Assembly (NCBI RefSeq): GCF_019312585.1
Contig: NZ_JAHWDP010000001.1
Location: forward strand, 372,001-436,000
Reading direction: 5' to 3'
Length of the DNA stretch: 64,000 nt
DNA from: Halomarinibacterium sedimenti
Lineage (GTDB): Bacteria; Bacteroidota; Bacteroidia; Flavobacteriales; Flavobacteriaceae
In this document: positions 34,803 to 63,163 of the stretch, piece after piece
Layout: each line of letters opens with the position of its first letter
Position numbering within the stretch: the first letter of the stretch is position 1
Position numbers and translations under genes: made by a program
Notes under the pieces: model-generated
The model's input: the letters and a program-made list of their open reading frames with translations, nothing else
Database searches by the model: none
What the model was told of the DNA's origin: nothing

Positions 34803-34807
34803 CTTGA

Positions 34808-34838
34808 GAAATAAATTTTGTTAAATATAATTTATTTC
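34808..34838. repeat. 10-bp perfect inverted repeat in the GH32 leader
   Basis: GAAATAAATT (34808-34817) and AATTTATTTC (34829-34838) are exact reverse complements 11 bp apart. They bracket the putative -7 box (34822-34829) and end 6 bp from the GH32 start codon, so they could be an operator or an mRNA hairpin at the start. Confidence 0.5.
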
Positions 34839-34874
34839 AGCAACTAATTTAGATGAACTTATGGAAGTGTTGAT

Positions 34875-39400: not shown

Positions 39401-39588
39401 CAAACTTAGTTTTATCAGTAACAGGTCAAAACCTATTTGTAATTACAGATTACACAGGTCTTGATCCAGAAGTAAGCTCTTCACCTGCAGGTGCAGACTT
39501 ACTTAATGGTTTACCTGTTTTTGGTATTGACTATGCATCTTTCCCAAGACCAAGAACTTTCACATTAGGATTTAATGCTAAATTTTAA
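36469..39588 (+). CDS. SusC-like TonB-dependent outer-membrane receptor
   Basis: This 1,039-residue protein imports oligosaccharides through the outer membrane together with the SusD-like lid. It has a signal peptide (about 1-24), a carboxypeptidase-regulatory-like domain (about 28-105), a TonB-box region with VVVIGYGT, a plug domain (about 120-240; NNNPLFVVDGIPL, SILKDASATAIYGSRGANGV in the usual order) and a 22-strand barrel ending in an aromatic-rich strand with terminal Phe. The SusD partner follows after 5 bp. The LacI operator and adjacent GH32 suggest a fructan or sucrose-type ligand, though this is inference. Confidence 0.95.
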   Translation: MKNKLLTKLLLLPLFILMGSSALAQITVGGNVSDANGPVPGVNVIVKGTSNGAQSDFDGNYSLDNVATDAVLVFSYIGYTTQEVSVNGKSTVNVFLQEDVESLAEVVVIGYGTTTVRDATGSVTAVTSEDFNQGVITSPEQLIQGKTAGVQISQSSGEPGAGIDIRIRGANSVRSNNNPLFVVDGIPLSGGNTSAEGANIGVGTTASKNPLSFLNPNDIESISILKDASATAIYGSRGANGVVFITTKSGKGARGSSWDFSSNLSIASVPKKYDLLSGDEFLEQTELAGFNVSEKDFGSNTDWQDYIFRTSASTNNDLSYSNNYGSGNLRATFGYGKTFGVVENSDLERITGRLNMNHRLLNNKLKLGLQSSISRVNDETAPLGGSAGFRGDLIGAAYSANPTWPTNPDFDGTGGLLSPATALAYTQNISNTNRALVNFSAEYAIIPELSAKINLGYDTSESTRTAVASGRARNFDQGAFGNGIGAINDLNTESKLLEATLNYKKDFSNSSLDVLVGYSFQDFQRDGRNISGWGFFTEDMNEMGEDLENTANRIEDNITGDYQQYGYAGNISDGIFVNRLFPEPSTDFIVGLGNLGVKSLFVDTFDNTDEIQSYFGRINYSIADKYLFTGTVRADGSSRFGEDNQYGIFPSGAFAWKINNEDFVGDSVSTLKLRLGYGITGNQEGLGYGNFTQRQRYAGGDVISDGGEINIPGIVDVSFPNPELKWEETTQYGVGLDFGFNDDRFTGTVDVYRKETTDLLFNVLAAQPSVQPFLFLNLPDSKVVNEGIEFSLAYDIIDGEDISWNAGFNVAYNKNMVEELQGEFNAGTIRGQGLSLAFAQKLQAGQPLFSYFLREFEGFDPATGQPIQTDVQEFVDKSALPDLTGGFSTSFSYKNWTASTYFAGQFGHYIYNNTANAFFTAGAFRGGRNVPLDVLTTGESFDAAADVSTRFLESGDFIRMQNATVSYAWPLKEDAFFSNLVLSVTGQNLFVITDYTGLDPEVSSSPAGADLLNGLPVFGIDYASFPRPRTFTLGFNAKF

Positions 39589-39593
39589 AAAAA

Positions 39594-41150
39594 ATGAATA
39601 TGAAAAAAAGATTTTATAACTACTTAAAACCAATTTTTACAATTGCGTTTTTATCTATAATTACTGTATCATGTACAGACCTAGCAATTGAAGAAACTGA
39701 TTCAATTATTGCTGAAGGATCTGTAGTATTTGAAGGAGTAGCAGATGTAGATGCTTCTATTACAAACCTTTATAATGATACTTATGGACAACTAGGAGAT
39801 CAAGCAAATTTCTTTGCTTTGAACGAAGTTTCTACAGATGAAACTCTAGTACCAACAAGAGGAACCGACTGGGGTGATAATGGAATTTGGAGAACACTTC
39901 ACTCTCATACTTGGAGTGCTACTCACCAATATATCCTTTCCACTTGGAATAACTTAAACCAAAATGTTTTGAGAGCATCTCAAATCATTGACCCTTTAAG
40001 TGGTCCAACTGCAGCCCAAGAAGCTGATGCTCGTTTCTTAAGAGCATTTAGTATGTACTTTGTATTGGATATGTGGGGTGTTGCTCCATATAGAAACCCA
40101 ACAGATGGAGCCGATGTGAATCCTTCTGTTCTTTCTGCCCAAGAAGCCTATGATTTTGTTGTTAATGACCTAGAAACTGCTATTCCTAATTTACCCGCGA
40201 ATGGCCCAAGTGAGAGTAACAATAGAGCTACAAAAGCAGCTGCTAATTTTCTTTTAGCAAAAGTTATTTTGAATTCTGAAAGATATACTGGCAGCGCGCC
40301 TAACTATCAAAGAGTAGTGGATCTTGTTGACGCAATCGCTGCAGATGGTTATGCATTACAAGCAGGTTATTTTGATTTATTCGAGCAAACTCTGGATAAC
40401 GAAACTATTTGGTTCGCAAATACAGGTGTTGGAAATAGAATATGGAATGGATTACACTATAACCAAAACTCTCCAGATAACACTGGGGGTGGATGGAATG
40501 GTTTCTCAACCTTAGCTGAATTTTACGATAGTTTTGAAGGTGATCCAAATAGCAACTACGTTGGAGATAATCAAGAAGAAAGAAGAGGATGGGTGCCAGA
40601 TGCATCTAATGCCAATTCAGATAACTTAGGTATTGGCTACGGATTCCTAATTGGACAACAATACAATGAGGATGGTTCAATATTAAATGATAGAACAGGT
40701 GAGCCACTTGTTTTCACTAAAGAAATGCCAGGACTTTCTGGAAATGGTGAAAACACTGGTGTTCGTATTATAAAATATCACCCAGGTGGAGAAGGTGGTT
40801 CATTTAGAGGACACGAAATCGTATTCCGTTATGCAGATGCTCATTTAATGAAAGCAGAAGCTATGATGAGAATGGGAGGAAGCGCAACAACTTTAGTTAA
40901 CGAACTAAGAACTCTTAGAGGAGCAACTCCACTAGGAAGTGTATCTGAAGCAGATATGCTTGCTGAAAGAGGGCGTGAACTTTATGTAGAATTCTGGAGA
41001 AGAAACGATATGTTACGTTTTGGACAGTTTACTAGAAACTGGGAATTTAAGAATGAGGCTTCTGTTGGAGATCCAACTTGGAACCTTTATCCTATTCCAG
41101 TTAACGCATTACTTTCTAACCCTAACTTGGTTCAGAATCCTGGTTACTAA
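39594..41150 (+). CDS. SusD/RagB-like surface glycan-binding lipoprotein
   Basis: This 518-residue outer-membrane lipoprotein (lipobox VSCTD) is the substrate-binding lid of the SusC channel. It shows the SusD/RagB pattern: an N-terminal helical TPR-like scaffold, an ARFLRAF motif (about 140-150), and the C-terminal RYADAHLMKAEAMMR and GRELYVEFWRRNDMLRFGQF blocks. It may start at 39594 or at the ATG two codons on. A terminator follows about 20 bp after the stop and separates it from the FG-GAP operon. Confidence 0.95.
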   Translation: MNMKKRFYNYLKPIFTIAFLSIITVSCTDLAIEETDSIIAEGSVVFEGVADVDASITNLYNDTYGQLGDQANFFALNEVSTDETLVPTRGTDWGDNGIWRTLHSHTWSATHQYILSTWNNLNQNVLRASQIIDPLSGPTAAQEADARFLRAFSMYFVLDMWGVAPYRNPTDGADVNPSVLSAQEAYDFVVNDLETAIPNLPANGPSESNNRATKAAANFLLAKVILNSERYTGSAPNYQRVVDLVDAIAADGYALQAGYFDLFEQTLDNETIWFANTGVGNRIWNGLHYNQNSPDNTGGGWNGFSTLAEFYDSFEGDPNSNYVGDNQEERRGWVPDASNANSDNLGIGYGFLIGQQYNEDGSILNDRTGEPLVFTKEMPGLSGNGENTGVRIIKYHPGGEGGSFRGHEIVFRYADAHLMKAEAMMRMGGSATTLVNELRTLRGATPLGSVSEADMLAERGRELYVEFWRRNDMLRFGQFTRNWEFKNEASVGDPTWNLYPIPVNALLSNPNLVQNPGY

Positions 41151-41170: not shown

Positions 41171-41197
41171 TAAAAGGTCGCCTAAATGGCGACCTTT
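41171..41197 (+). terminator. intrinsic terminator after susD
   Basis: AAAAGGTCGCC and GGCGACCTTTT form a perfect 11-bp stem with a 5-base loop, followed by further T residues. It ends the susCD transcript. Confidence 0.92.
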
Positions 41198-41272
41198 TTG
41201 TTTAAAGTACTTCCTTAATTTTTCATTAATCTTTTTAATGTTCAATTAATTCAATGATGTTATTCTAAACCA

Positions 41273-41322: not shown

Positions 41323-44300
41323 ATGACCACTCAAAAAATTCTGCTTTTTATTTTACTATTTGTCATATTTGGGTGTTCAAAAAAAGAAAACACACTTTTT
41401 GTATCACTATCACCAAGTAAAACAGGTATTAATTTTGAGAACAAGATTGAATCTTCAGTAAATCTCAATATTCTCAATTATATCTATTATTATAATGGTG
41501 CTGGTGTTGCTTCGGCAGATTTTAATAATGATGGTCTTATAGACCTTTATTTTACCGCAAATCAATCGGATGATAAATTATTTCTTAACAAAGGTGATTT
41601 TCAGTTTGAAGATATTTCAAAAGAAGCAGGTATCAATAACGAAAAAGGATGGACCAACGGTGTCTCTATCGTAGATATTAACCAAGATGGATGGATGGAC
41701 ATCTATATTTGCAAAACCGGAAATTATCTCAATGTAAAAGGTCATAATCTATTATTTATTAACCAAGGAATCTCTAATAATGGGCATCCTACTTTTAAAG
41801 AAGAAGCAAGTCAATACGGATTAGATTTTATTAGGTTTTCTACCCAAGCTAGTTTTTTTGATTACGATCTGGACGGAGATTTAGATATGTATCTCTTAAA
41901 CCATAGCACTAACCCTAATCAAAACTATGGAAAAGGCAGTATGCGAAATATCCCCAACAAAGAATCGGGTGATAAACTTTTTGAAAACAAAGACGGTTTA
42001 TTTGAAGATGTTTCGGAAGTCTCAGGAATATTTCAAAGCAAATTTAGCTATGGACTTGGTGTTTCAGTAAGTGATGTCAATAATGATGGGTTTCCTGATA
42101 TTTACATTAGCAACGATTTTTTTGAGAATGATTATCTCTACATCAATCAAGGTGATAAAACTTTTAAGGAGGTCATTCATTCAGAAAATTCTCCCATAGG
42201 GCACACCACGCATTATTCTATGGGGAATGATATAGCCGATATTAATAATGACGGTTTTACCGATATTATTTCGGTAGATATGCTTCCCGAAGAATTAAAA
42301 ACCTATAAAACTTCGGGTACCGAATTTAATTACCAAAATTACTCCAACTATGTTAAAAATGGTTATGCCTATCAATTTATGCAGAATACACTGCAACTTA
42401 ATAATGGTAATGGCAGTTTTAGTGAAACAGGATATCTAAGTGGTATTGCTGCCACCGAATGGTCTTGGAGCCCTTTAATAGCAGATTTTGACAACGACGG
42501 ACTTCATGATATATACATTACCAACGGAATATTGGGAGCTACAAATGATATGGATTTTATCAACTTTATTGCCAATGATAATATTCAAAAGTCTTTAGGA
42601 AAAAATATGTCTGAAAAGGAAATGGAATTCATTAAAAAAATTCCTGAAAAGAAGACGGCCAATTATTTTTTCAGAAATACAAAAAACAATCAATTTGAAG
42701 ATGTCTCTGAAGCTTGGTCTATAGAAACACCCTCTTTTAGCAATGGAGCTTGTTATGCAGACCTAGACAACGACGGTGATCTGGACCTCATTGTAAATAA
42801 TGTAAATGAACCTGCTTTCGTTCTAGAAAACAAACAAAACGAATCCCCACAAAAAAGAAATTATCTTAAGGTTACATTTGAAGGAAGCCAAACAAACCGA
42901 TATGGAATTGGAGCAAAGGTGATTGTCTACAGTGGAAATCAAAAAGTACTAAAAGAGAACTATACCACAAGAGGCTATCTTTCGGCAGTAGCTCCCCAGT
43001 TACATTTTGGGATGGACACGATAAAAAAAATAGATTCCATTCATGTTGTTTGGACAAATAAGTCATTTGAAAGTATTAAAAATGTTGAAGCCAATCAAAC
43101 CCTACAATTTGTTCAGAAAAATGCAAATGGAGATTACTACAGAATTTTCAAATCTCAATCAAACGTTCTGTTAACTCAAGTTGATACCCCCCTGCCCTAT
43201 TCGCATAAAGAAAACACCAATATTGAATTTAACCGTAATCCACTCATTCCTTTTTCAACTGCTAATGAAGGTCCTGGGGTTTCTGTTGCAGATATTAATA
43301 ATGATGGTTTGGAGGATATCTTTTTAAGTGGTGCCAAAGGACAGGAATCTCACCTATATCTACAGAATAAGGAAGGAAAATTTGAAATGCAACAAAAGGA
43401 ATTATTTCAAGAGGATATATTAAACGAAGATGTTTCACATGTTTTCTTTGACGCCAATAATGATGGCTTTAAAGATTTACTAGTGGTTAGTGGAGGTAAT
43501 GAATTTAGAGAAGGGAAAGCACTTTCGCCAAGATTTTATAGAAATGAAAAAGGCGTTTTTAGAAAGGACTCAACTCAATTTAAAAATGTATTTGTCAATG
43601 CTTCTAAGGTCACTACTATCGATTTTGACAATGACTCCTTTTTAGATGTATGCATTACTTCTAATGTGGTTCCACAAAAGTTTGGATACACCCCTAAGCA
43701 ATATGTATTCAAAAATGATGGAAAGGGTAATTTCGTGGATGTCACCGAACTTTATGGAAACGAATTCATGAACATTGGAAATTGCAACGATATTATTTGG
43801 GTAGATCTTAACAACGATACTTTTAAAGATGCCATTGTGGTGGGTGATTGGATGCCTATTTCCGTTTTTATAAATGACGGAAAGAAATTAACCTTGCAAA
43901 AAGGTAATGTATTAGACGCCACTAACGGATTTTGGAACACGATCAAAGCTGCCGATTTTGACAATGACGGTGATATTGACTTGGTTGCTGGAAATTGGGG
44001 ACTTAATTCCCGTTTAAAGGCTTCCCATAAAGAACCAATTACCCTTTATAAAACAGATTTTGACAACAATGGTTTTGAAGAAACAGTGGTCACCTATTTT
44101 TATAAAGGAACTGAAACCACAGTAGCCTCAAAGGAGGAATTGTCCAAACAAATGCCTTTTCTGAACAAACAATACTTATCGTTTAATGACTTTGCGAATG
44201 CGACTGTGAAAGAAGTTTTTTTAGAAGAAAAACTCAATAATTCGCTTCAAAAAAAGGTGTACGAATTGGCATCTTGTTATTTTGAAAATACTGGGAATAA

Positions 44301-44625
44301 TACCTTCAAAAAACATACTCTTCCTTTTGGTGCGCAAGTCTCATCGGTGAATGATATTTGGGTAGAAGATGTTAATAATGACGGAAATTTAGACCTCCTA
44401 TTAGTAGGCAATAATTTTGAAATTAGCACACAATTAAGCAGATTAGATGCTTCTAGAGGTGTCTTATTAATTAATGACGGAAAAGCTAATTTTACCGAAA
44501 AGAAAGACGAAAAGTTTATGTTGTCAGGTGCATGCCGTAGCATCGAGAAACTAACAATTAAAAGCGAGACGTATTTAATTATCACTCGTAATAATAACAC
44601 ACCATTATTTTTAAAGAAAAATTAA
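41323..44625 (+). CDS. FG-GAP/VCBS-repeat and ASPIC/UnbV lipoprotein 1
   Basis: The 1,100-residue protein has a lipobox (FGCSKK) and tandem FG-GAP/VCBS repeats with Ca2+-type DxDxDG loops (DFNNDGLIDLYF; DYDLDGDLDMY), forming beta-propellers before and after a central ASPIC/UnbV domain (about 513-596). It is probably surface- or periplasm-facing and may bind a ligand; no catalytic site is visible. Two paralogs follow directly. Such proteins are often found near SusC/D pairs in Bacteroidota, but their role is not established. Confidence 0.88.
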   Translation: MTTQKILLFILLFVIFGCSKKENTLFVSLSPSKTGINFENKIESSVNLNILNYIYYYNGAGVASADFNNDGLIDLYFTANQSDDKLFLNKGDFQFEDISKEAGINNEKGWTNGVSIVDINQDGWMDIYICKTGNYLNVKGHNLLFINQGISNNGHPTFKEEASQYGLDFIRFSTQASFFDYDLDGDLDMYLLNHSTNPNQNYGKGSMRNIPNKESGDKLFENKDGLFEDVSEVSGIFQSKFSYGLGVSVSDVNNDGFPDIYISNDFFENDYLYINQGDKTFKEVIHSENSPIGHTTHYSMGNDIADINNDGFTDIISVDMLPEELKTYKTSGTEFNYQNYSNYVKNGYAYQFMQNTLQLNNGNGSFSETGYLSGIAATEWSWSPLIADFDNDGLHDIYITNGILGATNDMDFINFIANDNIQKSLGKNMSEKEMEFIKKIPEKKTANYFFRNTKNNQFEDVSEAWSIETPSFSNGACYADLDNDGDLDLIVNNVNEPAFVLENKQNESPQKRNYLKVTFEGSQTNRYGIGAKVIVYSGNQKVLKENYTTRGYLSAVAPQLHFGMDTIKKIDSIHVVWTNKSFESIKNVEANQTLQFVQKNANGDYYRIFKSQSNVLLTQVDTPLPYSHKENTNIEFNRNPLIPFSTANEGPGVSVADINNDGLEDIFLSGAKGQESHLYLQNKEGKFEMQQKELFQEDILNEDVSHVFFDANNDGFKDLLVVSGGNEFREGKALSPRFYRNEKGVFRKDSTQFKNVFVNASKVTTIDFDNDSFLDVCITSNVVPQKFGYTPKQYVFKNDGKGNFVDVTELYGNEFMNIGNCNDIIWVDLNNDTFKDAIVVGDWMPISVFINDGKKLTLQKGNVLDATNGFWNTIKAADFDNDGDIDLVAGNWGLNSRLKASHKEPITLYKTDFDNNGFEETVVTYFYKGTETTVASKEELSKQMPFLNKQYLSFNDFANATVKEVFLEEKLNNSLQKKVYELASCYFENTGNNTFKKHTLPFGAQVSSVNDIWVEDVNNDGNLDLLLVGNNFEISTQLSRLDASRGVLLINDGKANFTEKKDEKFMLSGACRSIEKLTIKSETYLIITRNNNTPLFLKKN

Positions 44626-44637
44626 TTGAATATCCAT

Positions 44638-47600
44638 ATGCAATTTTCAAAAACAATCATAATTGTCTTAGCTCTCATAGTTATAAGTTGTACTACCAAC
44701 AATGACGAAAAGACTAGTAAAGAAGAGACCACGCCACTTTTTTCATTAGTAGCTTCATCACAATCTAATATTACGTTTACCAACAAGGTTGTAAACCAAA
44801 AGGACTTCAATATTTTTAAATATAGAAATTTCTACAACGGTGGTGGTGTTGCTATTGGAGATATCAATAACGATGGTCTGTCTGATATTTTCCTTACCGC
44901 CAATATGGAAGAAAATAAATTATACCTCAACAAAGGCAATATGGTTTTTGAGGATATTACTGAAAAAGCTGGAGTAGCTGGAAACAAGCCTTGGTCAACA
45001 GGGGTGGTTATGGTAGACATTAATGCCGATGGCCTATTGGATATTTATGTGAGCAATGCTGGAAATATGGAAGGGGAAAATCATAATAACGATTTGTACA
45101 TCAACAATGGAGACCTCACTTTTACTGAAATGGCCAAGGAATACAATCTTGCCGAAACCGGTTTTACCACTCATGCTTCTTTCTTTGACTATGACCTTGA
45201 TGGTGACCTAGATGCCTATATTTTGAATAACAGTAATATTCCTGTCAGCAGTTTAGGTTTTGCGCATCAGCGAGATGTAAGAGCTCAAGATTGGAATGTT
45301 CCAAAAATGTTTCGAGGTGTGGGAGACATGCTTCTTAGAAATGATAATGGAAAATTTGTAGAGGTGAGTGAAGAAGCTGGTATCTACGGTAGTTTAATTG
45401 GGTTTGGACTAGGTGTTATGGTGAGTGATGTAAATAATGACTTATACCCAGATATTTATGTGTCCAACGATTTTTACGAGCGAGATTATTTATACATCAA
45501 TAATCAAGATGGAACCTTTACAGAAGATATCGAAAATTGGATGTCGCACCTTTGTTTATCAGCTATGGGTGTTGATATGGCAGATATAAACAATGACGGA
45601 AATGCCGATATATTTATCACGGATATGCTTCCCGAAGGTGACGAACGGGTAAAATCTGTGATGGAATTTGAAGGCTATAATGTATTTAAACTGAAGCAAG
45701 GCAAAGATTTTTATCAGCAGTACATTCAAAACACACTGCAATTGAATAATGGAAACGGTAGCTATTCTGAAATTGCCTATTTCAGTGGAGTTTCGGCCAC
45801 CGACTGGAGTTGGTCTGGATTGTTATTTGATATGGACAATGACGGATTTCGAGATATTTTTGTGACAAACGGAATCAATCACGACCTCACCGATCTCGAT
45901 TTTGTCGACTTTTTTGCTAATGAAATTATTCAGGATATGGCGCTCACAGGAAGAAAAGAAGCCATTGACTCCATCATTAATAAAATGCCCGTAGTCCCTA
46001 TTCCAAATTATGCTTTTAAAAACAATAGGGATTTAACGTTTAGCAATGAAGCAGAGGCTTGGGGACTAGGTGTGCCAAGCATGTCTAATGGTGCAGCCTA
46101 TGGCGATTTGGATAATGACGGAGATTTAGACTTAGTCGTGAATAATGTAAATATGCAAACGTTTTTATATGAAAACAATTCAGAAAAGGTTTCCAATTAC
46201 AATCACATCACCTTAAAATTTGAAGGTTCACAAAAAAACCCGTTTGCCGTGGGTACTACTGTTAAAATGTACTACGAAGGAAACGTTGTCCTGCAAGAAC
46301 TAATCCCTTCGCGAGGGTTTCAGTCTTCAATGGACTACCCAATGACTATTGGCTTAGGAAATACCAAAAAAATTGATTCCATTCGTGTGATTTGGCCAGA
46401 CCACACCACCTCAAAAATGGAGCAAATTAATGCTAATCAAGTTATTACTTTTAAACATAAAGAGAATATTGGAGTGTTTAAAATTCCGAAAAAAGAAACT
46501 CAAAAAACACTTCTAAAAGAAATTCCAAATACGCTATTGACAAAACACAATGAAAACGAATACAACGATTTTGACTATGAAGGGCTTATCTACAAAAAAA
46601 TATCCCAAGAAGGACCTTGCCTAGCAACTGGGGACATTAATGGAGATGGAAATGAAGATGTGTTTATTGGAGGAGCAAAAGATCAAGCGGGTACCATTTT
46701 TATACACAATGGAAATGGAGATTTAAAACCGAAAAAAAGTACTGCCCTTGAAATAGATCGTGCTTTTGAAGATACTGCAGCCTCATTTTTTGATGCCGAT
46801 GGGGATGGCGATTTGGACTTAATGGTAGGCTCCGGTGGGAATCAAGTTAATGAATCGGCTCGAGAGAGTATTCGGTTGTATTTAAATGATGGCAAAGGCA
46901 ACTTCACCAAAGGAAGCCTTCCTCAAGTATCCAATATCAATAACATTTCTACAATTGCGGCAAACGATTTTGATAATGACGGCGATATCGATGTATTTGT
47001 GGGTTCACGAAGTATTGTTGGGGTGTATGGAATGGATCCTAGTCATATTTTATTACGTAATGAAGGAAATGGCGTCTTTATAAATACTGCGCCAGATATA
47101 ACGAAAGAGCTAAAACTAAGTGGAATGATTACCGATGCCAAATGGGTGGATATTGACGGCGATTCTCAAAAGGAATTAGTTACCGTTTCAGATTGGGGTG
47201 CCCCTTTGGTATATAGAAATATAAATGGGGTTTTAAAGAAACAATCTTCCACACTGGACAATCTTCAAGGATGGTGGAATATTATTCAGCCTGTAGATAT
47301 TGACGGCGATGGGGACGAAGATTTTATTTTAGGGAACCAAGGGAAAAATCTTCATTACACTCCTTCTTCAGAAAACGTGATGAAACTCTGGGTGAACGAC
47401 TTTGATAATAACGGAACTTTTGAACAAATTGTTACCCAAACTATTAATGGAAAAGATATGCCTGTGCATCAAAAAAGAGAATTAACCACGCAAATGGTGG
47501 CGCTTAAAAAGCAAAATTTAAAAGCTTCAGAATATGCAAAAAAATCCATTCAAGAATTATTTCCGGAAGCCGTATTAAAGAAAACCACCGTAAAACAAGT

Positions 47601-47976
47601 AACTACTTCCGAAACAATGATAGTCATAAATAATGGTGATGGAACGTTTGCTACCAAACCGCTCCCTGCACGATCACAACTATCTTGCGTATGCGGAATT
47701 GCCTGTGCCGATGTCAACAAAGATGGAAAAACGGATATCATTATGGGTGGAAATAATTTTGAATTTAAACCACAATTTTCTCGTCTTGATGCAGATTATG
47801 GTAATGTGCTTTTAAATCAAGGCAACTTAGATTTCGAATGGCAAAATTATAATGAAAGCGGATTCTTTATAAAGGAAGAAGTGAAACATATTCAGCCCAT
47901 AAAAGATAAAAATGGTAATGTGTTTTTTGTAGTCGCTATTAATAATGAAAAACCTCGAGTATTTGCAATTAATTAA
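44638..47976 (+). CDS. FG-GAP/VCBS-repeat and ASPIC/UnbV lipoprotein 2
   Basis: This 1,112-residue paralog has the same layout: lipobox (VISCTT), a first FG-GAP propeller (about 60-500), ASPIC/UnbV domain (about 521-605) and second propeller with GDINGDGNEDVFIGGAK. Near the C-terminus the GGNNFEFKPQFSRLDADYG block matches the GNNFEISTQLSRLDASRG block of paralog 1. I start it at the ATG at 44638, which puts the lipobox signal first; a TTG directly after the upstream stop would add four residues. It overlaps the next gene by 32 bp. Confidence 0.88.
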   Translation: MQFSKTIIIVLALIVISCTTNNDEKTSKEETTPLFSLVASSQSNITFTNKVVNQKDFNIFKYRNFYNGGGVAIGDINNDGLSDIFLTANMEENKLYLNKGNMVFEDITEKAGVAGNKPWSTGVVMVDINADGLLDIYVSNAGNMEGENHNNDLYINNGDLTFTEMAKEYNLAETGFTTHASFFDYDLDGDLDAYILNNSNIPVSSLGFAHQRDVRAQDWNVPKMFRGVGDMLLRNDNGKFVEVSEEAGIYGSLIGFGLGVMVSDVNNDLYPDIYVSNDFYERDYLYINNQDGTFTEDIENWMSHLCLSAMGVDMADINNDGNADIFITDMLPEGDERVKSVMEFEGYNVFKLKQGKDFYQQYIQNTLQLNNGNGSYSEIAYFSGVSATDWSWSGLLFDMDNDGFRDIFVTNGINHDLTDLDFVDFFANEIIQDMALTGRKEAIDSIINKMPVVPIPNYAFKNNRDLTFSNEAEAWGLGVPSMSNGAAYGDLDNDGDLDLVVNNVNMQTFLYENNSEKVSNYNHITLKFEGSQKNPFAVGTTVKMYYEGNVVLQELIPSRGFQSSMDYPMTIGLGNTKKIDSIRVIWPDHTTSKMEQINANQVITFKHKENIGVFKIPKKETQKTLLKEIPNTLLTKHNENEYNDFDYEGLIYKKISQEGPCLATGDINGDGNEDVFIGGAKDQAGTIFIHNGNGDLKPKKSTALEIDRAFEDTAASFFDADGDGDLDLMVGSGGNQVNESARESIRLYLNDGKGNFTKGSLPQVSNINNISTIAANDFDNDGDIDVFVGSRSIVGVYGMDPSHILLRNEGNGVFINTAPDITKELKLSGMITDAKWVDIDGDSQKELVTVSDWGAPLVYRNINGVLKKQSSTLDNLQGWWNIIQPVDIDGDGDEDFILGNQGKNLHYTPSSENVMKLWVNDFDNNGTFEQIVTQTINGKDMPVHQKRELTTQMVALKKQNLKASEYAKKSIQELFPEAVLKKTTVKQVTTSETMIVINNGDGTFATKPLPARSQLSCVCGIACADVNKDGKTDIIMGGNNFEFKPQFSRLDADYGNVLLNQGNLDFEWQNYNESGFFIKEEVKHIQPIKDKNGNVFFVVAINNEKPRVFAIN

Positions 47977-50900
47977 AACATACTGGATCCTTACTATTTT
48001 TCTACTCTTATTGGCGAGTTGTCAAAAAGAGGAGCAAACGCTATTTTCGTTATTATCTCCCTCAAAATCGGGGGTGACTTTTCAGAATACCATTACTGAA
48101 ACCGACTCTCTCAACATCCTCGATTACCTCTATTTCTATAATGGAGGCGGAGTTGCTATGGGTGACATTAATAATGATGGTTTACCCGATTTATATTTCT
48201 CGTCCAATCAGGAAAAAAATAAACTTTACCTCAACAAAGGGAACTTAACGTTTGAAGATATTACATTAGAAGCAGGCGTTCAAGGAAATAGCACTTGGAA
48301 TACAGGAACCATCATGGTTGATGTAAATGGTGATGGATGGCTCGATATTTATGTGTTAGCCGTGGTGGGCATTAATGGTTTTGAAGGCCATAATGAATTG
48401 TTTATCAATAATAAAGACAATACTTTTTCTGAAGAATCGAAGGCATACGGGCTCGATTTCCAATGCTACGGAACTTCCGCTGCCTTTTTAGATTATGATT
48501 TGGATGGCGATATGGACCTCTATATTTTGAACCACGCTGTACATACCGAAGAGTCCTTTGGAAGAGCTCAAATCCGAAACATCCGAAACGAAAAAACAGG
48601 TGACAAACTCCTTCGAAATGATGGCGACACTTTTACCGATGTAAGCGAAGAAGCAGGAATTTTTGGGGGCATAAATGGTTACGGTTTAGGAATTTCTGTA
48701 GCCGATTTTAACCAAGACGGGTATCCCGATATTTATGTGGGAAATGATTTTCACGAGGACGATTATTTCTATTTAAATAATGGGGATGGCACCTTTACTG
48801 AAAGCCTTCGGAAATATTTTGGACATACCAGCCGCTTCTCTATGGGGAATGACGTGGCAGACATCAATAATGACGGTTGGCCAGATTTATTAACGCTGGA
48901 TATGTTACCAGAAGAGGATAGTGTTATTAAATCCTCTGAGGGAGATGATATGTACCAAACCCTTAAAATGCGTACTCAGCAATACGGATATCATTATCAA
49001 TATACCCGAAATATGCTTTTTGTAAGTCAGCCAGATGCTCCATATTTAGAAACTGCCTTGTTAAGCAATGTGGCCGCCAGCGATTGGAGTTGGAGTGCAC
49101 TATTTGGCGATTATGACCAAGACGGGAAACAGGATTTGTTTATCTCCAATGGTATTCCAAAACGACCTAATAACTTAGATTTTATACGCTATATCTCTAA
49201 TGAAGAGATACATAATAAACTAAATAATTCCCGCCTAGTCGATCAAAAAGCTTTAGAATTAATGCCTTCTGGAAAAGTAGCTAATTACTTTTTCAAAGGA
49301 GAAAATGCCTTACAATTTAAAGATGTATCCAAAGATTGGGGAGCTGGACTTCCTTCCATTTCTGGTGCAAGCGCTGTGGGCGATTTGGATAATGATGGCG
49401 ATTTAGATATCGTTTCGAACAATAGTAATGAACCCGCAAGCATTTATATTAACAACACCAATGGAAATAACTCCTATTTGAAACTTCAATTTCAATATCA
49501 AGATAAAAACCCACAAGGCTTCGGAACTAAGGCAATATCATACAAGAATGGTATATTGCAATATAAAGAATTAAATACCGCACGCGGATTTCAAGCCTCG
49601 TCGCAACCCATTATTCATTTTGGATTTGGAACTGAAAAGACCATTGATTCGTTAAAGATAATTTGGCCTAATAAAACTCAACAAGTGCTTAAAAATGTTG
49701 CCGTTAATCAATTGTTGACCATCAAGCCAGAAAATACAGTTTCGTATTCTTACCAACAAAAAGAAAGGAAGAAACTCTTTACAAAAGTAGAAGGAAATTT
49801 AGGGATTCATTACACTCACAAAGAGGACAATCACACCGATTTCAACTACCAGAAACTTATTCCTTATGAAGTGTCGGATAGAGGGCCCGCTGTGGCGATT
49901 GGTGATATGAACCGTGACGGGAAAGAAGATATTTTTTTGGGGGGAGCTAGAAATCAGATGTCTGTTATTTATTCCCAATTAGAAGAAAAATTTCAATTAA
50001 GAGATGCGCCAAATTTGGCAATGGATAGTATTAGTGAAGCCGTCACTTCCTGTTACCTTAGCCTTGATGGAAATTCACAATTCATAAATTTAGTAGGTAA
50101 GGGAGGAAACTTAATATCACCAAGTTTAAAAGTGTTTCAGAATTCCTTACTAACAGAAACCAATGACACACTTTTTATGGAGCGTTCATTCGATAGTACA
50201 TACTTCAATACTTCAGTCATAAAGGCGATGTATCAAGAACTGGACAAAACAAATGAGATGACACCCATTTTTATTGGAAATCATTCTGCACCCATGGATT
50301 TCGGAAAAACCGTTCCGTCTTATATTGTTGGAACTACCCCAAACATGATAGAACTAAAGGATCTTGGCATGGTCACCGATGCACTGTGGGACGACTTTAA
50401 TGGCGATGGACAAATAGATTTAATTGTCGTTGGCGAATGGATGCCCCCTCGTTTCTATGAATTTAAAAATAACTCTTGGGAAGAAAGCTTTCCCATGCGT
50501 GAAAAACTGAACGGTCTTTGGCAAACGATAATTCCATTTGATATGGATGATGATGGAGACCAAGATTATCTTTTAGGAAATTGGGGATTGAACAGCAAGT
50601 TTAAAGCCTCCTCAACATTTCCGATGAAAATGTACTACGCCGATTTTGATGAAAATGGAAGTACCGAAACGGTGGTGGCTATTGAAAAGAATGGAAAATA
50701 CTATCCGCTTTTAGGATTAGATGATCTCGCAGGGCAAATGGTATTCCTTCGTAAGAAATTCAATACCTATAAAGACTTTGCAGGTAAAACCATGGAAGAA
50801 GTTTTTGGGGACAAATTGAATAAAGCTACTATTTTTGAAGTTCACACTTTGGCTTCAGGATTTTTGAGAAACAACAAAGGCAGCTTTACTTTTGTATCGT

Positions 50901-51205
50901 TTGCCAATGAACTTCAAATTTCACCTATAAAAGCCTTTGTGGATTTCGATTTTAATGGAGACGGAAAAACGGAAGTCCTGGCCGGAGGGAATTATTTTGG
51001 CGTCATTCCTTTCCATGGAAGGTATGATAGCTTTCCAGGTGCTTTAATTTCTTCAGAAAGTGAAATCACTTTAGGAAGTAGTTTAGGACTCAATTTTACC
51101 CAAAAATCTGTTCGACATCTAAAAATAATTTCAATTAAAAATAAACCCTATTTATTAGTCGTAAATAATAATGATAAAGCCGAAGTATATGAAATCAATG
51201 AGTAA
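47945..51205 (+). CDS. FG-GAP/VCBS-repeat and ASPIC/UnbV lipoprotein 3
   Basis: This 1,086-residue third paralog has lipobox LASCQK, a first propeller with motifs such as GDINNDGLPDLYFSS, an ASPIC/UnbV domain (about 511-594) and a second propeller. Its C-terminal half has fewer clean DxDxDG loops than the other two, and the C-terminal RLDA block is changed (GNYFGVIPFHGRYDSFPG), so it has diverged in function or ligand. It overlaps its neighbours on both sides (32 bp upstream, 17 bp downstream). Confidence 0.88.
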   Translation: MKNLEYLQLIKTYWILTIFLLLLASCQKEEQTLFSLLSPSKSGVTFQNTITETDSLNILDYLYFYNGGGVAMGDINNDGLPDLYFSSNQEKNKLYLNKGNLTFEDITLEAGVQGNSTWNTGTIMVDVNGDGWLDIYVLAVVGINGFEGHNELFINNKDNTFSEESKAYGLDFQCYGTSAAFLDYDLDGDMDLYILNHAVHTEESFGRAQIRNIRNEKTGDKLLRNDGDTFTDVSEEAGIFGGINGYGLGISVADFNQDGYPDIYVGNDFHEDDYFYLNNGDGTFTESLRKYFGHTSRFSMGNDVADINNDGWPDLLTLDMLPEEDSVIKSSEGDDMYQTLKMRTQQYGYHYQYTRNMLFVSQPDAPYLETALLSNVAASDWSWSALFGDYDQDGKQDLFISNGIPKRPNNLDFIRYISNEEIHNKLNNSRLVDQKALELMPSGKVANYFFKGENALQFKDVSKDWGAGLPSISGASAVGDLDNDGDLDIVSNNSNEPASIYINNTNGNNSYLKLQFQYQDKNPQGFGTKAISYKNGILQYKELNTARGFQASSQPIIHFGFGTEKTIDSLKIIWPNKTQQVLKNVAVNQLLTIKPENTVSYSYQQKERKKLFTKVEGNLGIHYTHKEDNHTDFNYQKLIPYEVSDRGPAVAIGDMNRDGKEDIFLGGARNQMSVIYSQLEEKFQLRDAPNLAMDSISEAVTSCYLSLDGNSQFINLVGKGGNLISPSLKVFQNSLLTETNDTLFMERSFDSTYFNTSVIKAMYQELDKTNEMTPIFIGNHSAPMDFGKTVPSYIVGTTPNMIELKDLGMVTDALWDDFNGDGQIDLIVVGEWMPPRFYEFKNNSWEESFPMREKLNGLWQTIIPFDMDDDGDQDYLLGNWGLNSKFKASSTFPMKMYYADFDENGSTETVVAIEKNGKYYPLLGLDDLAGQMVFLRKKFNTYKDFAGKTMEEVFGDKLNKATIFEVHTLASGFLRNNKGSFTFVSFANELQISPIKAFVDFDFNGDGKTEVLAGGNYFGVIPFHGRYDSFPGALISSESEITLGSSLGLNFTQKSVRHLKIISIKNKPYLLVVNNNDKAEVYEINE

Positions 51206-52520
51206 AATAGTTGCCATTTTGATGGTCCCACTGGTATTATTAGGTTGTAAAAAAGAAGAACCCATTGTAATTACCAGCACCGATTATCAAAATGCCGTTG
51301 ACAAGGTTACCGAAATCATGGTACACGATATTTTTTCGCCACCTGTAGCTAGTAGAATTTACGCCTATCCCAATATTGCCGCCTATGAGATTATTGCACA
51401 GAATAATCCTTCGTATCAATCATTGGCTGGCCAAATAAAGCACCTCTCGCCTATTCCAACAACCGATAATAAAAATGTAAACTATCCCTTGGCAGCATTA
51501 ATTGCACATATGGATGTAAGCAAAACCGTCATTTTTTCGGAAGAAATGATGGAGCGTTACAGCGATAGTCTTTACAACACATGGAAAGGTCAAAATGAAG
51601 CTGTATTTAATGCCTCTAAAGAATATGGTTTACAAGTGGCAGATCACATTAAATCATGGATGGATGGTGATAATTACAAGCAAACACGTACCATGCCTAA
51701 GTTTACCATTATCACCGAAGAGCCCTCACGGTGGCAACCCACACCTCCTTCATATATGGATGGTATTGAGCCGCATTGGAATAAAATACGTCCTTTTGTT
51801 TTGGATTCGGCTTCTCAATTTAAACCTGTTCCTCCGCCAGCATTTTCCTTAGAAAAAGAAAGTGATTTCTATAAAGAGCTGGAAGAAGTGTATACCATTT
51901 CAGAAGAAATTACAAAAGAAGGGGAAGAATCTGAAGGGCTTAAAATTGCACAATTTTGGGATTGCAATCCTTATGTTTCGGTGACACGAGGACACTTAAT
52001 GTTTGCCACCAAAAAAATTACTCCAGGTGCCCATTGGATGGGGATTGCCGAAATAGCATGTAAAAATACCGAGTCCAGTTTTGAGGATACGGTCTATGCC
52101 TATACAAAAACGTCCATAGCCTTATTTGATGGGTTTATTAGCTGCTGGGACGAAAAATATCGAAGCAACCTCATTCGCCCAGAAACATTAATCAATCAGC
52201 ATATTGATGAAAACTGGAAGCCCATTTTACAAACCCCACCCTTCCCAGAGTATAGTAGTGGACACTCGGTAGTTTCTGGAGCTTCGGCTACGGTATTAAC
52301 CGATATCTTTGGTGACAATTTTAAGTTTTTAGACGATACCGAACTTCCCTACGGACTTCCAGTGCGTTCGTTTTCTTCATTTAAGGCGGCAGCGCAAGAG
52401 GCAGCGATTAGCCGTATGTATGGAGGAATTCATTATCGTGCTGCCGTTGAAAATGGCATCAATCAAGGAGTGCAAGTAGGAAATCTTGTAAATGAAAAAC
52501 TTAAAATGAAGGTAGAGTAA
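51189..52520 (+). CDS. vanadium-haloperoxidase-like PAP2 superfamily lipoprotein
   Basis: The 443-residue protein has a lipobox (LLGCKK) and a C-terminal PAP2/vanadium-haloperoxidase domain. The vanadate or phosphate pocket can be read off: K323 and R330 (KYRSNLIRP, KX6RP), S357-G358-H359 (YSSGHS; the usual first Pro of PSGH is Ser) and R409/H415 (SRMYGGIH). The spacing equals that of vanadium chloroperoxidase. The Asp that pairs with the last His in many phosphatases is absent (HYRAA). It may oxidise halides or act as a phosphatase. It overlaps FG-GAP gene 3 by 17 bp and ends the operon. I start at the ATG at 51189; ATGs at 51171 and 51198 are alternatives. Confidence 0.82.
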   Translation: MKSMSKIVAILMVPLVLLGCKKEEPIVITSTDYQNAVDKVTEIMVHDIFSPPVASRIYAYPNIAAYEIIAQNNPSYQSLAGQIKHLSPIPTTDNKNVNYPLAALIAHMDVSKTVIFSEEMMERYSDSLYNTWKGQNEAVFNASKEYGLQVADHIKSWMDGDNYKQTRTMPKFTIITEEPSRWQPTPPSYMDGIEPHWNKIRPFVLDSASQFKPVPPPAFSLEKESDFYKELEEVYTISEEITKEGEESEGLKIAQFWDCNPYVSVTRGHLMFATKKITPGAHWMGIAEIACKNTESSFEDTVYAYTKTSIALFDGFISCWDEKYRSNLIRPETLINQHIDENWKPILQTPPFPEYSSGHSVVSGASATVLTDIFGDNFKFLDDTELPYGLPVRSFSSFKAAAQEAAISRMYGGIHYRAAVENGINQGVQVGNLVNEKLKMKVE

Positions 52521-52611: not shown

Positions 52612-53505
52612 ATGAAAATAATTAAAGGAGTTTTTATTTTTGGAATTCTTGGCTTTCTAATTTGGTACTTCTTTATCAAAGAATATGATTACCAGATAAA
52701 TTTTGAAACTAAAACCACTATCGGTACAGTAAATCAATCCATTAAATCTTGGAATTCGTCTTTGGAAAACCCCCAGCCTATTCAACAAATTAACGAAGCG
52801 GAACTTCTTCAAACTATAAGGCGAAACGATTCCACCTATACGTATTTATGGAAACTGAAAAACGTAAACGATAGTACCGTTAAGGTTTCAGCATTTGTAA
52901 AAAACGAAGCGCATACCTTTAAAAACAGAGTCCTTATCCCCTTTTCGGAACCTATTCTCGAAAAAACAGCGAAACAAACTGCGAAAGCATTTTTGGAATC
53001 GCTTCAAAATCATTTAAAAGAAATAAGAATAAAGATTGAAGGAATAGAAGATTCCCCCAGTAGTTATGCTGCTTATGTTTCGGTCGATTGTCTTCAAATT
53101 GAAAAAGCCAGGGGTATGATGGCGAATTTCAGTCTGCTTTCTTCTTTTATTGATGAAAATAATCTCGAAGCCAATGGGCGTCCTTTTCTTGAAATCACCT
53201 CTTGGAATAGAGAGAAAGATAGTATTTCCTATCATTTTTGCTTTCCGTTTAAAAAAACCGATTCTGTAAGAGGGAATGCATTTATTTCCATTAAAGAGTT
53301 TCCTTCAAAAAAGAGTATGAAGGCGGTTTATAATGGAAATTATATTACTTCCGATAGAGCATGGTATGCTTTAGAAAAATATGCCAAAAACAAGAATCTC
53401 GAAGTAAGTATGCTTCCGATAGAAGTATTCCACAACAATCCCAATATGGGAGGGGACGAATTGCAATGGAAAACCGATGTTTACCTTCCCATAAAAGAAG
53501 ATTAA
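52612..53505 (+). CDS. membrane-anchored protein with GyrI-like (AraC effector-binding) domain
   Basis: This 297-residue protein has one N-terminal membrane helix (about 4-23), a middle START/polyketide-cyclase-like stretch (about 30-135) and a C-terminal GyrI-like small-molecule binding domain ending in the typical VFHNNPNMGGDELQWKTDVY segment. There is no DNA-binding part. It could sense or carry a hydrophobic ligand, but no role is established. It is 91 bp from the haloperoxidase gene and 28 bp from the glycosidase gene. Confidence 0.65.
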   Translation: MKIIKGVFIFGILGFLIWYFFIKEYDYQINFETKTTIGTVNQSIKSWNSSLENPQPIQQINEAELLQTIRRNDSTYTYLWKLKNVNDSTVKVSAFVKNEAHTFKNRVLIPFSEPILEKTAKQTAKAFLESLQNHLKEIRIKIEGIEDSPSSYAAYVSVDCLQIEKARGMMANFSLLSSFIDENNLEANGRPFLEITSWNREKDSISYHFCFPFKKTDSVRGNAFISIKEFPSKKSMKAVYNGNYITSDRAWYALEKYAKNKNLEVSMLPIEVFHNNPNMGGDELQWKTDVYLPIKED

Positions 53506-53533: not shown

Positions 53534-54691
53534 ATGCAATTTTCCGATCTCTATACACAAGCGGTATCGTTATTACATAACCTAACCACCCCTAATGGAA
53601 TTTTGGCTAGCACTATTGAAGCCGATAATTACAAGCGCATTTGGGCACGAGACAGTATGGTTTGTGGTATTGCTGGACTATGGATTAAGGATGAAATAGT
53701 TATTGAAGGATTAAAAAATTCATTACTTATTTTGGCTAAAAGTCAGAATGAACTAGGAATGATTCCTTCCAATGTGTTGCCCAACGGAACGGATGCCTCC
53801 TTTGGAAGCTTAGTGGGGCGAATAGATGCTAATACCTGGTTTATGGTAGGGGCTTGTTTATATTTTAAAGAAACCAAAGATGAAGCAGCTTGGCAACTTT
53901 TAAAACCTGCCATTGAAAAATGTCGCATTTTCTTAAAAGCTTCCGAATTCAATACTAAAGGGTGGATTTACACACCTCTAAGTGGGAATTGGGCCGACGA
54001 ATATCCCATACACGGATATACCCTGTATGATAATATGCTGAGGCTTTGGAGCGAAAAACTATTCTTGGAGATTGAAGGAAAAAGTACCACAGAATGTGAG
54101 GCTATTTTAAAAAAAACAGAAGCCAATTTTTGGCCTTCTGAAACTATTGAAGACAAGCTCATCTATCAAAAGCCTGCTCTTCAAAAAGCGCAACAGAAAA
54201 AGCAAAACCACTTTGGCGCTTTTATTTTGCCAGGAAAATACGACTTGCGATTTGATGCCGCTGCCAATGCTTTAGCGCTGCTTCAGTTTCAATTGAATAA
54301 TACTCAAAAAGATGCTCTTTCAACTTTCATAGAAACACTTCCCAATAATTTAATTCCTGCTTTTTGGCCTGTCGTTACAAAAGAAAATGACGATTGGAAT
54401 TTACTAGAAGGAAATTATTCTTTCAGTTTTAAAAATCATCCTGGCGATTTTCATAATGGTGGCATTTGGCCTGTATGGATGGGACTATTTTGTTTAGGAC
54501 TTTCAAAAAATGGAATGAAAAAAGAAGCTCAAAAGATTGTTTCTGCATTTACCGAAACAGTTTTAGAAAATAAAGCTTGGGATTTTCAAGAATATTTCAA
54601 CTCCAAAACTTTAAAAGTTGGAGGGAAAACGCAAATGGGTTATACGGCATCAGGCATTGTCTTTATGAATTTGGCAATAAACAACGAATAA
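53534..54691 (+). CDS. (alpha/alpha)6-barrel glycosidase, GH100 invertase-like
   Basis: The 385-residue cytoplasmic protein (no signal peptide) has an (alpha/alpha)6 glycosidase pattern with the acidic RIWARDSMVCG motif near residue 37, a NWADEYP segment and HNGGIWPVWMGL near the C-terminus, the last resembling the HNGGSWPVL motif of GH100 alkaline invertases. Together with the SLC45 sucrose-type transporter and PfkB kinases this suggests intracellular sucrose cleavage. Other (alpha/alpha)6 families such as COG3408 debranching enzymes are an alternative. Confidence 0.6.
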   Translation: MQFSDLYTQAVSLLHNLTTPNGILASTIEADNYKRIWARDSMVCGIAGLWIKDEIVIEGLKNSLLILAKSQNELGMIPSNVLPNGTDASFGSLVGRIDANTWFMVGACLYFKETKDEAAWQLLKPAIEKCRIFLKASEFNTKGWIYTPLSGNWADEYPIHGYTLYDNMLRLWSEKLFLEIEGKSTTECEAILKKTEANFWPSETIEDKLIYQKPALQKAQQKKQNHFGAFILPGKYDLRFDAAANALALLQFQLNNTQKDALSTFIETLPNNLIPAFWPVVTKENDDWNLLEGNYSFSFKNHPGDFHNGGIWPVWMGLFCLGLSKNGMKKEAQKIVSAFTETVLENKAWDFQEYFNSKTLKVGGKTQMGYTASGIVFMNLAINNE

Positions 54692-54847: not shown

Positions 54848-56164
54848 ATGTCTAAAAAACCAAGTTTATCCTTTTGGCAAATTCTAAATATGAATGTTGG
54901 ATTTTTAGGAATCCAATATAGTTTTGGGCTTCAGCAAACTGCCATAAACCCTATATTTTTATACCTAGGAGCACCAGAAGAAATGCTTCCTATTTTAAAT
55001 ATTGCGGGGCCTGTTACAGGTTTAATAGTGCAACCAATCATTGGAGCCATGTCTGATAAAACTTGGTCCTCTCGTTGGGGAAGACGCAAGCCTTATTTTT
55101 TAATAGGCGCGCTCATGGGAAGTATATGTTTGTTCGCATTCCCGCATAGTCCATTGTTATGGTTTGCTGTTGGATTATTATGGATTTTGGATGTGGGTAA
55201 TAATATGGCAATGGAGCCGTATCGCGCTTTTGTAGGAGATAAACTACCTGAAAAGCAATTGAGCTTAGGATACCAAATGCAAAGTTTATTTGTAGGTGCT
55301 GGAATTCTTTTGGCTAATGGATCTATCGTCCTGTTTCAATATTTGTTTGGCGATGAAACAGTAGAGGTTGCGGGAACCATTCCGCAATGGATTTATTATT
55401 CCTTTTATATTGGTGCATTTCTTTCGTTAACCACCATTTTATGGTCTGTGATCAAAACACCGGAGATTCCTCCAACTGATGATGAAATGGATGAAATCAA
55501 CAAAATTAAAGCACTACCCTTTCTTCAAAAAGCGGGGAAACCCTTTGTGGAAATTTGGGATGCCATTAAAGAAATGCCCAAATTTATGTGGAAAATTGGT
55601 GCCGTATACCTATTTCAATGGTATGCGCTTTTTATTTATTGGCAGTTTACGACACCCCTTTTCATGAAAACATTTAATTATTCTACTTCTGAAGCAGCTT
55701 CCCAAGCCGCCAAAATGAGTCTCACCTATAACACGGTGACGATGATAGTGGCGCTTATGTTGGTACCGTTAACTCTCAAGTTTGGAGGTAAAAAGATATA
55801 TGCTTTAAGTTTATTGGGTACCGCCGCGGCATTGTTTTCGATTCCATATATCGCAGACCCTAATTTGGTCTTAATCCCAATGGTGTTATTTGGTATAGGC
55901 TGGGCTGCTATGATGGGAATTCCCTATACCATGGTTTCCAAAGTTGTGCCGCAAGAAAGAAGAGGGGTCTATATGGGAATTTTAAACATGATGATTGTCA
56001 TTCCCATGTTTATACAAACTCTAAGTTTCGGTCCTATTTATAAATATTTATTAGGTAACAATGCCATCAACGCCATACTCTTTGCAGGAGTCTTTTTTGC
56101 CATCGCAGCCTTTTTAGCCATGCGACTTAACATTACCAAATCGGTTTACGAAGAGGAATCTTAA
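54848..56164 (+). CDS. SLC45/GPH-type MFS sugar transporter (sucrose- or disaccharide-type)
   Basis: The 438-residue protein has 12 helices and the SLC45/GPH hallmark loop SSRWGRRKPYF after helix 2-3, with QPIIGAMSDKTW just before it. Relatives import sucrose, maltose or trehalose with protons or sodium. The neighbours (invertase-like enzyme upstream, trehalase downstream) fit either sucrose or trehalose. It starts a run of five genes on the plus strand, preceded by the LacI-type operator. Confidence 0.87.
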   Translation: MSKKPSLSFWQILNMNVGFLGIQYSFGLQQTAINPIFLYLGAPEEMLPILNIAGPVTGLIVQPIIGAMSDKTWSSRWGRRKPYFLIGALMGSICLFAFPHSPLLWFAVGLLWILDVGNNMAMEPYRAFVGDKLPEKQLSLGYQMQSLFVGAGILLANGSIVLFQYLFGDETVEVAGTIPQWIYYSFYIGAFLSLTTILWSVIKTPEIPPTDDEMDEINKIKALPFLQKAGKPFVEIWDAIKEMPKFMWKIGAVYLFQWYALFIYWQFTTPLFMKTFNYSTSEAASQAAKMSLTYNTVTMIVALMLVPLTLKFGGKKIYALSLLGTAAALFSIPYIADPNLVLIPMVLFGIGWAAMMGIPYTMVSKVVPQERRGVYMGILNMMIVIPMFIQTLSFGPIYKYLLGNNAINAILFAGVFFAIAAFLAMRLNITKSVYEEES

Positions 56165-56176
56165 TACTAACTTAAT

Positions 56177-60212: not shown

Positions 60213-60231
60213 CACTTAAACACTAACGACT

Positions 60232-63154: not shown

Positions 63155-63163
63155 AAAATATTT

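Follow-up and report, generated by a model that had tools for sequence, protein, structure and literature searches.

Vanadium iodoperoxidase 1 (VIPO1) of Zobellia galactanivorans has been crystallized (4cit, 4usz); iodide is the sole halogen listed for Zg-VIPO1 (4CIT) in one article (PMC8407142), and in another ZgvIPO1 serves as a positive control (PMC10427571). In the iodine-accumulating flavobacterium Arenibacter C-21, uptake of iodine requires glucose, O2 and Ca2+, and at least five homologs of 4USZ are present; a glucose oxidase-haloperoxidase model has been proposed for this uptake, to which the same report assigns no gene (PMC5064120). Sus-like utilization loci of Bacteroidota encode a SusC-SusD pair together with lipoproteins, glycosidases, sugar transporters and a LacI-type regulator. 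Iodoperoxidases of bacteria have been studied in purified form but are not known to have an agreed role, and the same holds for the FG-GAP/ASPIC lipoproteins that are common in Bacteroidota. Here we describe a row of genes in which these components meet. It lies in a 64,000-nucleotide stretch of Halomarinibacterium sedimenti (Flavobacteriaceae; assembly GCF_019312585.1, contig NZ_JAHWDP010000001.1, positions 372,001 to 436,000 of the forward strand), hereafter the window, and encodes three FG-GAP/ASPIC lipoproteins (FG1, FG2 and FG3) and a vanadium iodoperoxidase (VIPO) of the PAP2 superfamily. We read it as the iodoperoxidase-bearing outer-membrane part of a Sus-type importer of sugars, an interpretation that we hold with about evenly balanced confidence.

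The row is preceded on the plus strand by a SusC/RagA-type TonB-dependent outer-membrane transporter (36469-39588; TIGR04056, 670 bits) and a SusD-type lipoprotein (39594-41150; PF07980, and 8.4e-33 to 3ck7). An intrinsic-terminator-like hairpin with a U-tract lies 3' of susD on the same strand (41174-41200; RNA fold -19.4 kcal/mol, z -7.1), and none of 200 shuffles was equally stable. The hairpin is absent from the output of a consensus promoter and terminator scan, though RNA folding detects it, and the promoter part of that scan shows no excess (54 against 48.3 in shuffles, standard deviation 6.8). Four abutting or overlapping open reading frames then occupy 41323-52520 of the plus strand: FG1 (41323-44625, 1100 residues; PF13517 8.8e-73, PF07593 1.2e-18, lipobox Cys18), FG2 (44626-47976; PF13517 1.6e-77, PF07593 1.6e-19, lipobox), FG3 (47945-51205; Pfam matches and a structural model), which adjoins the enzyme, and the VIPO1-type lipoprotein (51171-52520; phmmer 7.5e-213 to 4cit). 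The longest start of FG2 is TTG 44626, but the in-frame ATG 44638 is more likely and leaves a 12-bp gap after FG1; FG2 and FG3 overlap by 32 bp; and for the enzyme gene, with 51171 as its longest start, ATG 51189 gives an overlap of 17 bp with FG3. With these shorter ATG starts we reproduce the spacings of 12, -32 and -17 bp given in the original prediction, which had been made from the DNA alone and had placed the four genes directly after a susCD terminator, where we also find them.

Among proteins of known structure, the product of the fourth gene, which Pfam assigns to PAP2, matches 4cit over almost its full length (residues 9-446), with 68.1% identity over a 442-position alignment. It shares with the Zobellia enzyme the pocket motifs and a lipobox-like N-terminus, and differs in having S362, not Thr, beside the Ser-Gly-His. 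The vanadate pocket had been predicted to be intact, and all of its residues are indeed present (K329, R336-P337, S363-G364-H365, S414-R415, G419 and H421); they fit the KX6RP, SGH and SRXXXGXH vanadate-binding motifs. Across the VIPO1-type clade described below, the K, R, H, R and H of the pocket are found in 58 of 58 members, the Ser in 54 and the Gly in 53. The assignment of the window protein to the VIPO1-type vanadium haloperoxidases, with its pocket intact, is therefore well supported, and its activity is predicted from this relationship. The original prediction had allowed that a substrate is either oxidized or dephosphorylated; oxidation is favored, because the protein is so close to a characterized iodoperoxidase. 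The alternative, that phosphorylated sugars or lipids are its substrates and it works as a phosphatase, is very improbable in our estimate: PAP2 enzymes and apo-haloperoxidases have this pocket in common, but the protein is closely similar to 4cit, and the residue four positions past the last ligand His, where the phosphatase signature SRX5HX3D ends in Asp, is Ala425 in the window; a single one of the 58 clade members has Asp there. Without this Asp the window protein does not show the signature of the PAP2 acid phosphatases, and a phosphatase role is the less likely.

The three FG proteins each pass the curated Pfam cut-offs for FG-GAP_3/FG-GAP and for one UnbV_ASPIC domain, which lies between residues 526 and 608, and each carries 12 Ca-type motifs of the form Dx[DN]x[DN]G; they are paralogs of about 1,100 residues, as had been claimed. 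Two propellers around the ASPIC domain had been proposed for all three. This arrangement is seen in the AlphaFold model of FG3 (pLDDT, the model's own confidence score, 88.5), and FG1 and FG2 are known from their Pfam domains and Ca-type motifs. Residues 31-597 of the FG3 model superimpose on vertebrate cartilage acidic protein 1 (CRTAC1, 9etn) with Z 37.8 and a root-mean-square deviation of 2.5 over 458 residues (Foldseek 5.1e-26), and residues 608-1086 form the second propeller. CRTAC1 likewise has an FG-GAP propeller followed by ASPIC; FG3 differs from it in the additional C-terminal propeller and the lipobox, and the identity is 21%. FG3 is thus predicted by the model to consist of a CRTAC1-like propeller, an ASPIC domain and a second propeller. 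We identified no catalytic signature in the FG proteins. An enzymatic role for FG3 was considered from the similarity of its second propeller to aldos-2-ulose dehydratase (Z 26, root-mean-square deviation 3.8, 9% identity) and was not adopted; we treat this match as a lead only, because unrelated WD40 rows reach Z 23-24. In a quick tree, the FG1, FG2 and FG3 types of the window sit on separate branches. Elsewhere in the same genome, L199 (G000:C2) and L200 (G000:C14) hold further long FG-GAP/ASPIC genes with no PAP2 gene nearby, at one place as an FG1-FG2 type pair near a contig end.

In order to determine how widely the adjacency of FG and PAP2 genes occurs, as a test proposed with the original prediction, we examined three samples. 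A search of the class covered 295 genomes, 57 of which gave PAP2 matches, and 80 listed matches from 45 genomes besides the window's own were fetched with their neighborhoods; this sample omits weak, partial and some frame-broken matches, and some stretches stop at contig ends, which possibly hides neighbors. An FG gene is encoded on the same strand within 3.5 kb in 47 of these 80 neighborhoods and in 30 of the 45 genomes. A maximum-likelihood tree of the 80 PAP2 proteins and that of the window contains a VIPO1-type clade of 58 rows (support 100/99), and by the same 3.5-kb rule 47 of 58 proteins inside this clade are FG-linked, as compared with 1 of 23 outside it. The rule scores one locus (L054; L numbers designate loci) as lacking FG where two FG genes and SusCD lie farther upstream. 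The second sample comprises 80 named loci, nearly all from Flavobacteriaceae. They were the best 80 in a set of at least 589, which biases the sample to close relatives. At 69 of them an FG gene stands directly upstream of VIPO; three FG genes are visible in 38 of the 69 and two in 25, within a 10-kb flank that limits these counts. The FG gene overlaps the VIPO gene in 34 of the 69 when the longest starts are used.

The third sample, a survey of 199 genomes of the family with one genome per genus, contains VIPO in 86 genomes at a cut-off of E <= 1e-90. We defined FG3-type genes by our own cut of at least 42% identity and scored the three best candidates per genome. Among the matches listed, 52 of 57 FG3-type genes share the strand of VIPO and lie 5' of it, with a spacing of at most 71 bp in 50 cases and of some 0.9-1.1 kb in the other two, and of the next 25 FG paralog rows listed, not counting those of the window, none lies within 1.5 kb and 15 lie within 8 kb 5' of VIPO. 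The pairing of FG3 and VIPO thus goes beyond chance, and the adjacency as a whole is conserved in Bacteroidota (47/58 in the clade, 69/80 named loci, 52/57 listed FG3-type genes), with a GyrI-like gene downstream in Flavobacteriaceae. A lack of conservation, which had been named as a refutation of the original prediction, is therefore not what we find. Distance correlation was also tried as a sign of co-evolution; it fails to single out FG3 and VIPO, since every pair of genes in the row shows a correlation (Spearman 0.53-0.79).

Gene order and content vary at some loci. The enzyme gene comes first and the FG gene second in four of them (L087, L091, L094 and L116), so that the pairing seems to outlast a change of gene order. 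Genes of about 190-200 codons lie between FG genes at L044, L047, L048, L158 and L184, and the proteins from L047 and L184 match no Pfam family. One contig labelled Candidatus Rokubacteria (L127) carries a flavobacterial FG1-FG2-FG3-VIPO-GyrI row whose enzyme is 69% identical to that of the window; this contig is likely mis-binned.

A conserved neighborhood may also reflect regulation alone. According to this explanation the FG proteins assist the importer by binding glycans, and VIPO, an enzyme of antioxidant or chemical defense, is co-induced with feeding, the two forming no complex. We regard it as possible, though on the doubtful side. Some FG genes have no VIPO and some VIPO genes no adjacent FG gene, and the FG-VIPO pair persists while companion enzymes vary widely, all of which would be expected if the genes merely shared their control. 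The pairing is however specific to the FG3 type, and the FG and VIPO genes frequently overlap; because of these two observations, something more than loose co-regulation is suggested.

The gene that follows VIPO in the window (52612-53505, plus strand; PF06445) encodes a protein with an N-terminal helix and a C-terminal half resembling the GyrI-like small-molecule-binding domain. Its model (pLDDT 94.9) shows the helix and, in the other part, a fold nearest to CtaZ and the dye-binding CTR107. Among the best 80 loci, a relative of this protein is encoded within the next two genes at 61 of 69 FG-VIPO loci and at 0 of 11 without a directly adjacent FG gene. Both the fold and this association would fit a process in which phenolics found together with plant or algal sugars are halogenated or oxidized by VIPO, and the resulting aromatic products are bound by the GyrI-like protein with its N-terminal helix. 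We consider this improbable: GyrI-like domains accept many ligands, and no aromatic-degradation family occurs among the companion families listed.

The neighborhoods of FG loci point to nutrient import. A SusC or SusD gene is found upstream on the same strand at 33 of 48 FG loci and at 4 of 33 others, in a fetched upstream stretch of 13.5 kb where the contig allows, which agrees with the expected link to SusCD; the Fisher values of this analysis (3.5e-7 for this comparison, and 1e-10) overstate significance, since related loci were entered as if independent. We also scanned up to four same-strand neighbors per locus, dropping five proteins of more than 1,040 residues from 109. In 104 neighbor proteins from 43 FG loci, the 25 of 137 families listed include glycoside hydrolase (GH) families GH65 in 7, GH3 in 6 and GH29, GH35 and GH43 in 2 each, as well as ROK regulators in 5. 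In 104 proteins from 30 other loci, GH65 (2) is the only GH family among the 25 of 165 listed. Single loci add GH2, GH5, GH20, GH30, GH13 and GH97. Since the glycosidases and other companions differ between loci, the FG-VIPO module is reused with different nutrients.

Some loci have unusual companions. Directly before VIPO, L191 (L191:6814-9981) encodes a fusion of an FGGY glycerol kinase with a FAD protein of the glycerol-3-phosphate oxidase/dehydrogenase type, identified by our scan; a like protein, judged by size, order and sequence start, precedes VIPO in L198. FG1 and an SSF gene lie farther upstream in both loci, and in L157 a fused gene of this type follows the row. The glycerol-3-phosphate oxidase/dehydrogenase family also includes dehydrogenases; if the L191-type protein is an oxidase, it is a possible source of H2O2, though inside the cell. 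Two further loci (L049:8155-10054 and L051:8007-9922) have an extra redox pair between SusD and FG-VIPO, consisting of a redoxin (AhpC/TSA) gene and a second gene that resembles copper type II monooxygenase below the cut-off. At five loci with VIPO but no directly adjacent FG gene (L119, L126, L135, L138 and L146), an FGGY kinase and xylose-isomerase-like pair precedes VIPO (by scan in L119, by size and order in the others), an SSF gene is among the preceding genes, and in L135, L138 and L146 FG is present farther upstream.

Within the window, the row is embedded in a sugar cluster. Divergent genes on the minus strand (31018-35894, profile matches) encode a PfkB kinase, an MFS (sugar) transporter, GH32 and a LacI-type regulator. 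Downstream, on the plus strand, are a GH100 (alkaline invertase)-like glycosidase (53534-54691; PF12899 5.6e-14, 5z73 1.6e-8), two MFS transporters (54848-57403; PF07690), a trehalase of GH37 (57403-59274; PF01204 1.1e-142), and a second PfkB sugar kinase with a Na+/glucose-type SSF symporter (59277-61884; profile and sequence matches). The nearest solved relative of the window SusD by sequence is 3ck7, the starch-binding SusD, with the profile of that family below cut-off. The window contains these marks of a Sus-like locus: adjacent susC and susD, glycosidases (GH32, GH37 and GH100-like) and a LacI-type regulator. It differs from known loci in its accessory lipoproteins, which are FG-GAP/ASPIC proteins and a haloperoxidase where known loci have surface glycan-binding proteins and glycosidases. 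These neighbors, together with the SusD relationship, suggest that the sugar is sucrose, trehalose or another small alpha-glucoside. Growth on fructan had been proposed as a check; fructan is possible through GH32 but not specific, and the neighbors point to sugars of the sucrose or trehalose type.

All four proteins of the row carry a lipobox cysteine by our own pattern, as expected of the lipid-anchored proteins that had been predicted; the same pattern calls lipoboxes in 176 of 240 FG and 88 of 138 PAP2 proteins. For export to the surface, a study on Capnocytophaga describes a lipoprotein signal whose best form is C-X-K-(D/E)2-X (PMC5080379). The strict motif C-X-K-(D/E)2 is found in the window enzyme (CKKEE) and in FG3 (CQKEE), which hints that these two may be exported to the surface. 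In a relaxed form, K-(D/E)2 or Q-A-(D/E)2 at positions +2 to +8, it occurs in 21 of 176 FG and 17 of 88 PAP2 proteins with a lipobox (shuffle means 2.7 and 1.7), in 2 of 146 other lipobox proteins and in 0 of 32 SusD proteins.

If the row is indeed an iodoperoxidase-carrying module of the importer, its parts could act as follows. SusCD would import a small alpha-glucoside or sucrose-like sugar, and next to it on the surface the FG proteins would serve for binding or docking. VIPO would use H2O2, coming from oxidative bursts of algae or plants, from light or from oxidases acting on nutrients, to oxidize iodide to hypoiodous acid, and this reaction would remove peroxide and make a local oxidant during feeding. 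Surface exposure, the source of H2O2, iodide as the halide used in vivo, the binding or docking role of FG and the benefit to the cell are steps that we infer.

The distribution of the row in marine relatives brings in iodine uptake. FG1-FG2-FG3-VIPO-GyrI rows are present in Z. russellii, Z. uliginosa and Z. barbeyronii, with enzymes 86%, 98.4% and 85% identical to 4cit, respectively. Z. galactanivorans, whose own locus is outside the matches listed, presumably has the same row, because the enzyme of Z. uliginosa is so nearly identical to 4cit. Two Arenibacter species (L133 and L166) have FG2-FG3-VIPO-GyrI. The window shares with the Arenibacter C-21 model the family Flavobacteriaceae, VIPO homologs and a putative dependence on sugar and Ca2+, and differs from it in having no glucose oxidase gene among the scanned window genes. 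Following that glucose oxidase and haloperoxidase model, the row could serve to capture iodine: iodide would be oxidized at the surface to HOI with H2O2 from sugar oxidation, the oxidized iodine would be taken up, and FG would be the calcium-dependent part. The glucose, O2 and Ca2+ requirement of C-21 and its 4USZ homologs (PMC5064120), the two Arenibacter rows and the 12 Ca-type motifs per FG protein are all consistent with this. We nevertheless think it unlikely, as these Arenibacter rows come from species other than C-21, the link between Ca2+ and FG is a guess, and the module accompanies sugar genes, with no iodine gene seen beside it in the scans made. The SSF symporter of the cluster also matches Na+/glucose transporters better than those for Na+ and iodide (1e-63 against 2.5e-22), and its reading as an iodide symporter was rejected.

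Several observations weigh against an iodoperoxidase-bearing importer module. The terminator-like hairpin stands between susCD and the row, and no H2O2-making oxidase, including glucose oxidase, was found among the scanned window genes. FG1 and FG2 lack the strict export motif, and the motif in general says little, because its counts in FG and PAP2 proteins are low and the SusD proteins that lack it should be surface-exposed. Outside the row, this genome has FG genes at five places where the fetched stretches contain no PAP2 gene. VIPO lacks a directly upstream FG gene in 11 of the 80 named loci, five of which have a same-strand FG gene 8-10 kb upstream and six none in the stretch, one of these stretches ending 1.2 kb upstream. 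The FG3 type is adjacent in 52 of the 86 VIPO-bearing family genomes, among the matches listed, and in the quick tree more distant families have other FG branches beside VIPO. The FG2-FG3-VIPO-GyrI row is found in Flavobacterium species of lakes and cold habitats, where iodide is scarce. Conserved adjacency, finally, can stem from shared regulation and not from a complex.

What the gene context suggests is a link between sugar feeding and halogen or peroxide chemistry. The conserved operon that they share with SusCD provides iodoperoxidases and FG-GAP/ASPIC lipoproteins with a concrete partner that can be tested and with a setting in nutrition, and in algae-associated Flavobacteriaceae the row offers candidate genes for taking up iodine and handling peroxide. 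A bolder and rather tentative proposal is that throughout Bacteroidota the FG double propellers and VIPO form a surface complex on SusCD, coupling nutrient capture to H2O2-driven halide oxidation. If true, FG-GAP/ASPIC lipoproteins would acquire a function, and the sugar- and calcium-dependent iodine chemistry of marine flavobacteria would be accounted for. Among the titles and abstract starts listed in literature searches, with few subscription journals covered, none reports FG-GAP/ASPIC genes with SusD or a haloperoxidase operon. The suggestion of an undescribed system consequently holds for the operon, within the literature searched, and not for the type of enzyme, which was already characterized.

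At the far end of the window (62825-64000), beyond the sugar cluster, the gene for a CMD-family protein precedes one for a radical SAM protein that carries DUF3641, a combination known from arsenosugar biosynthesis (ArsS).

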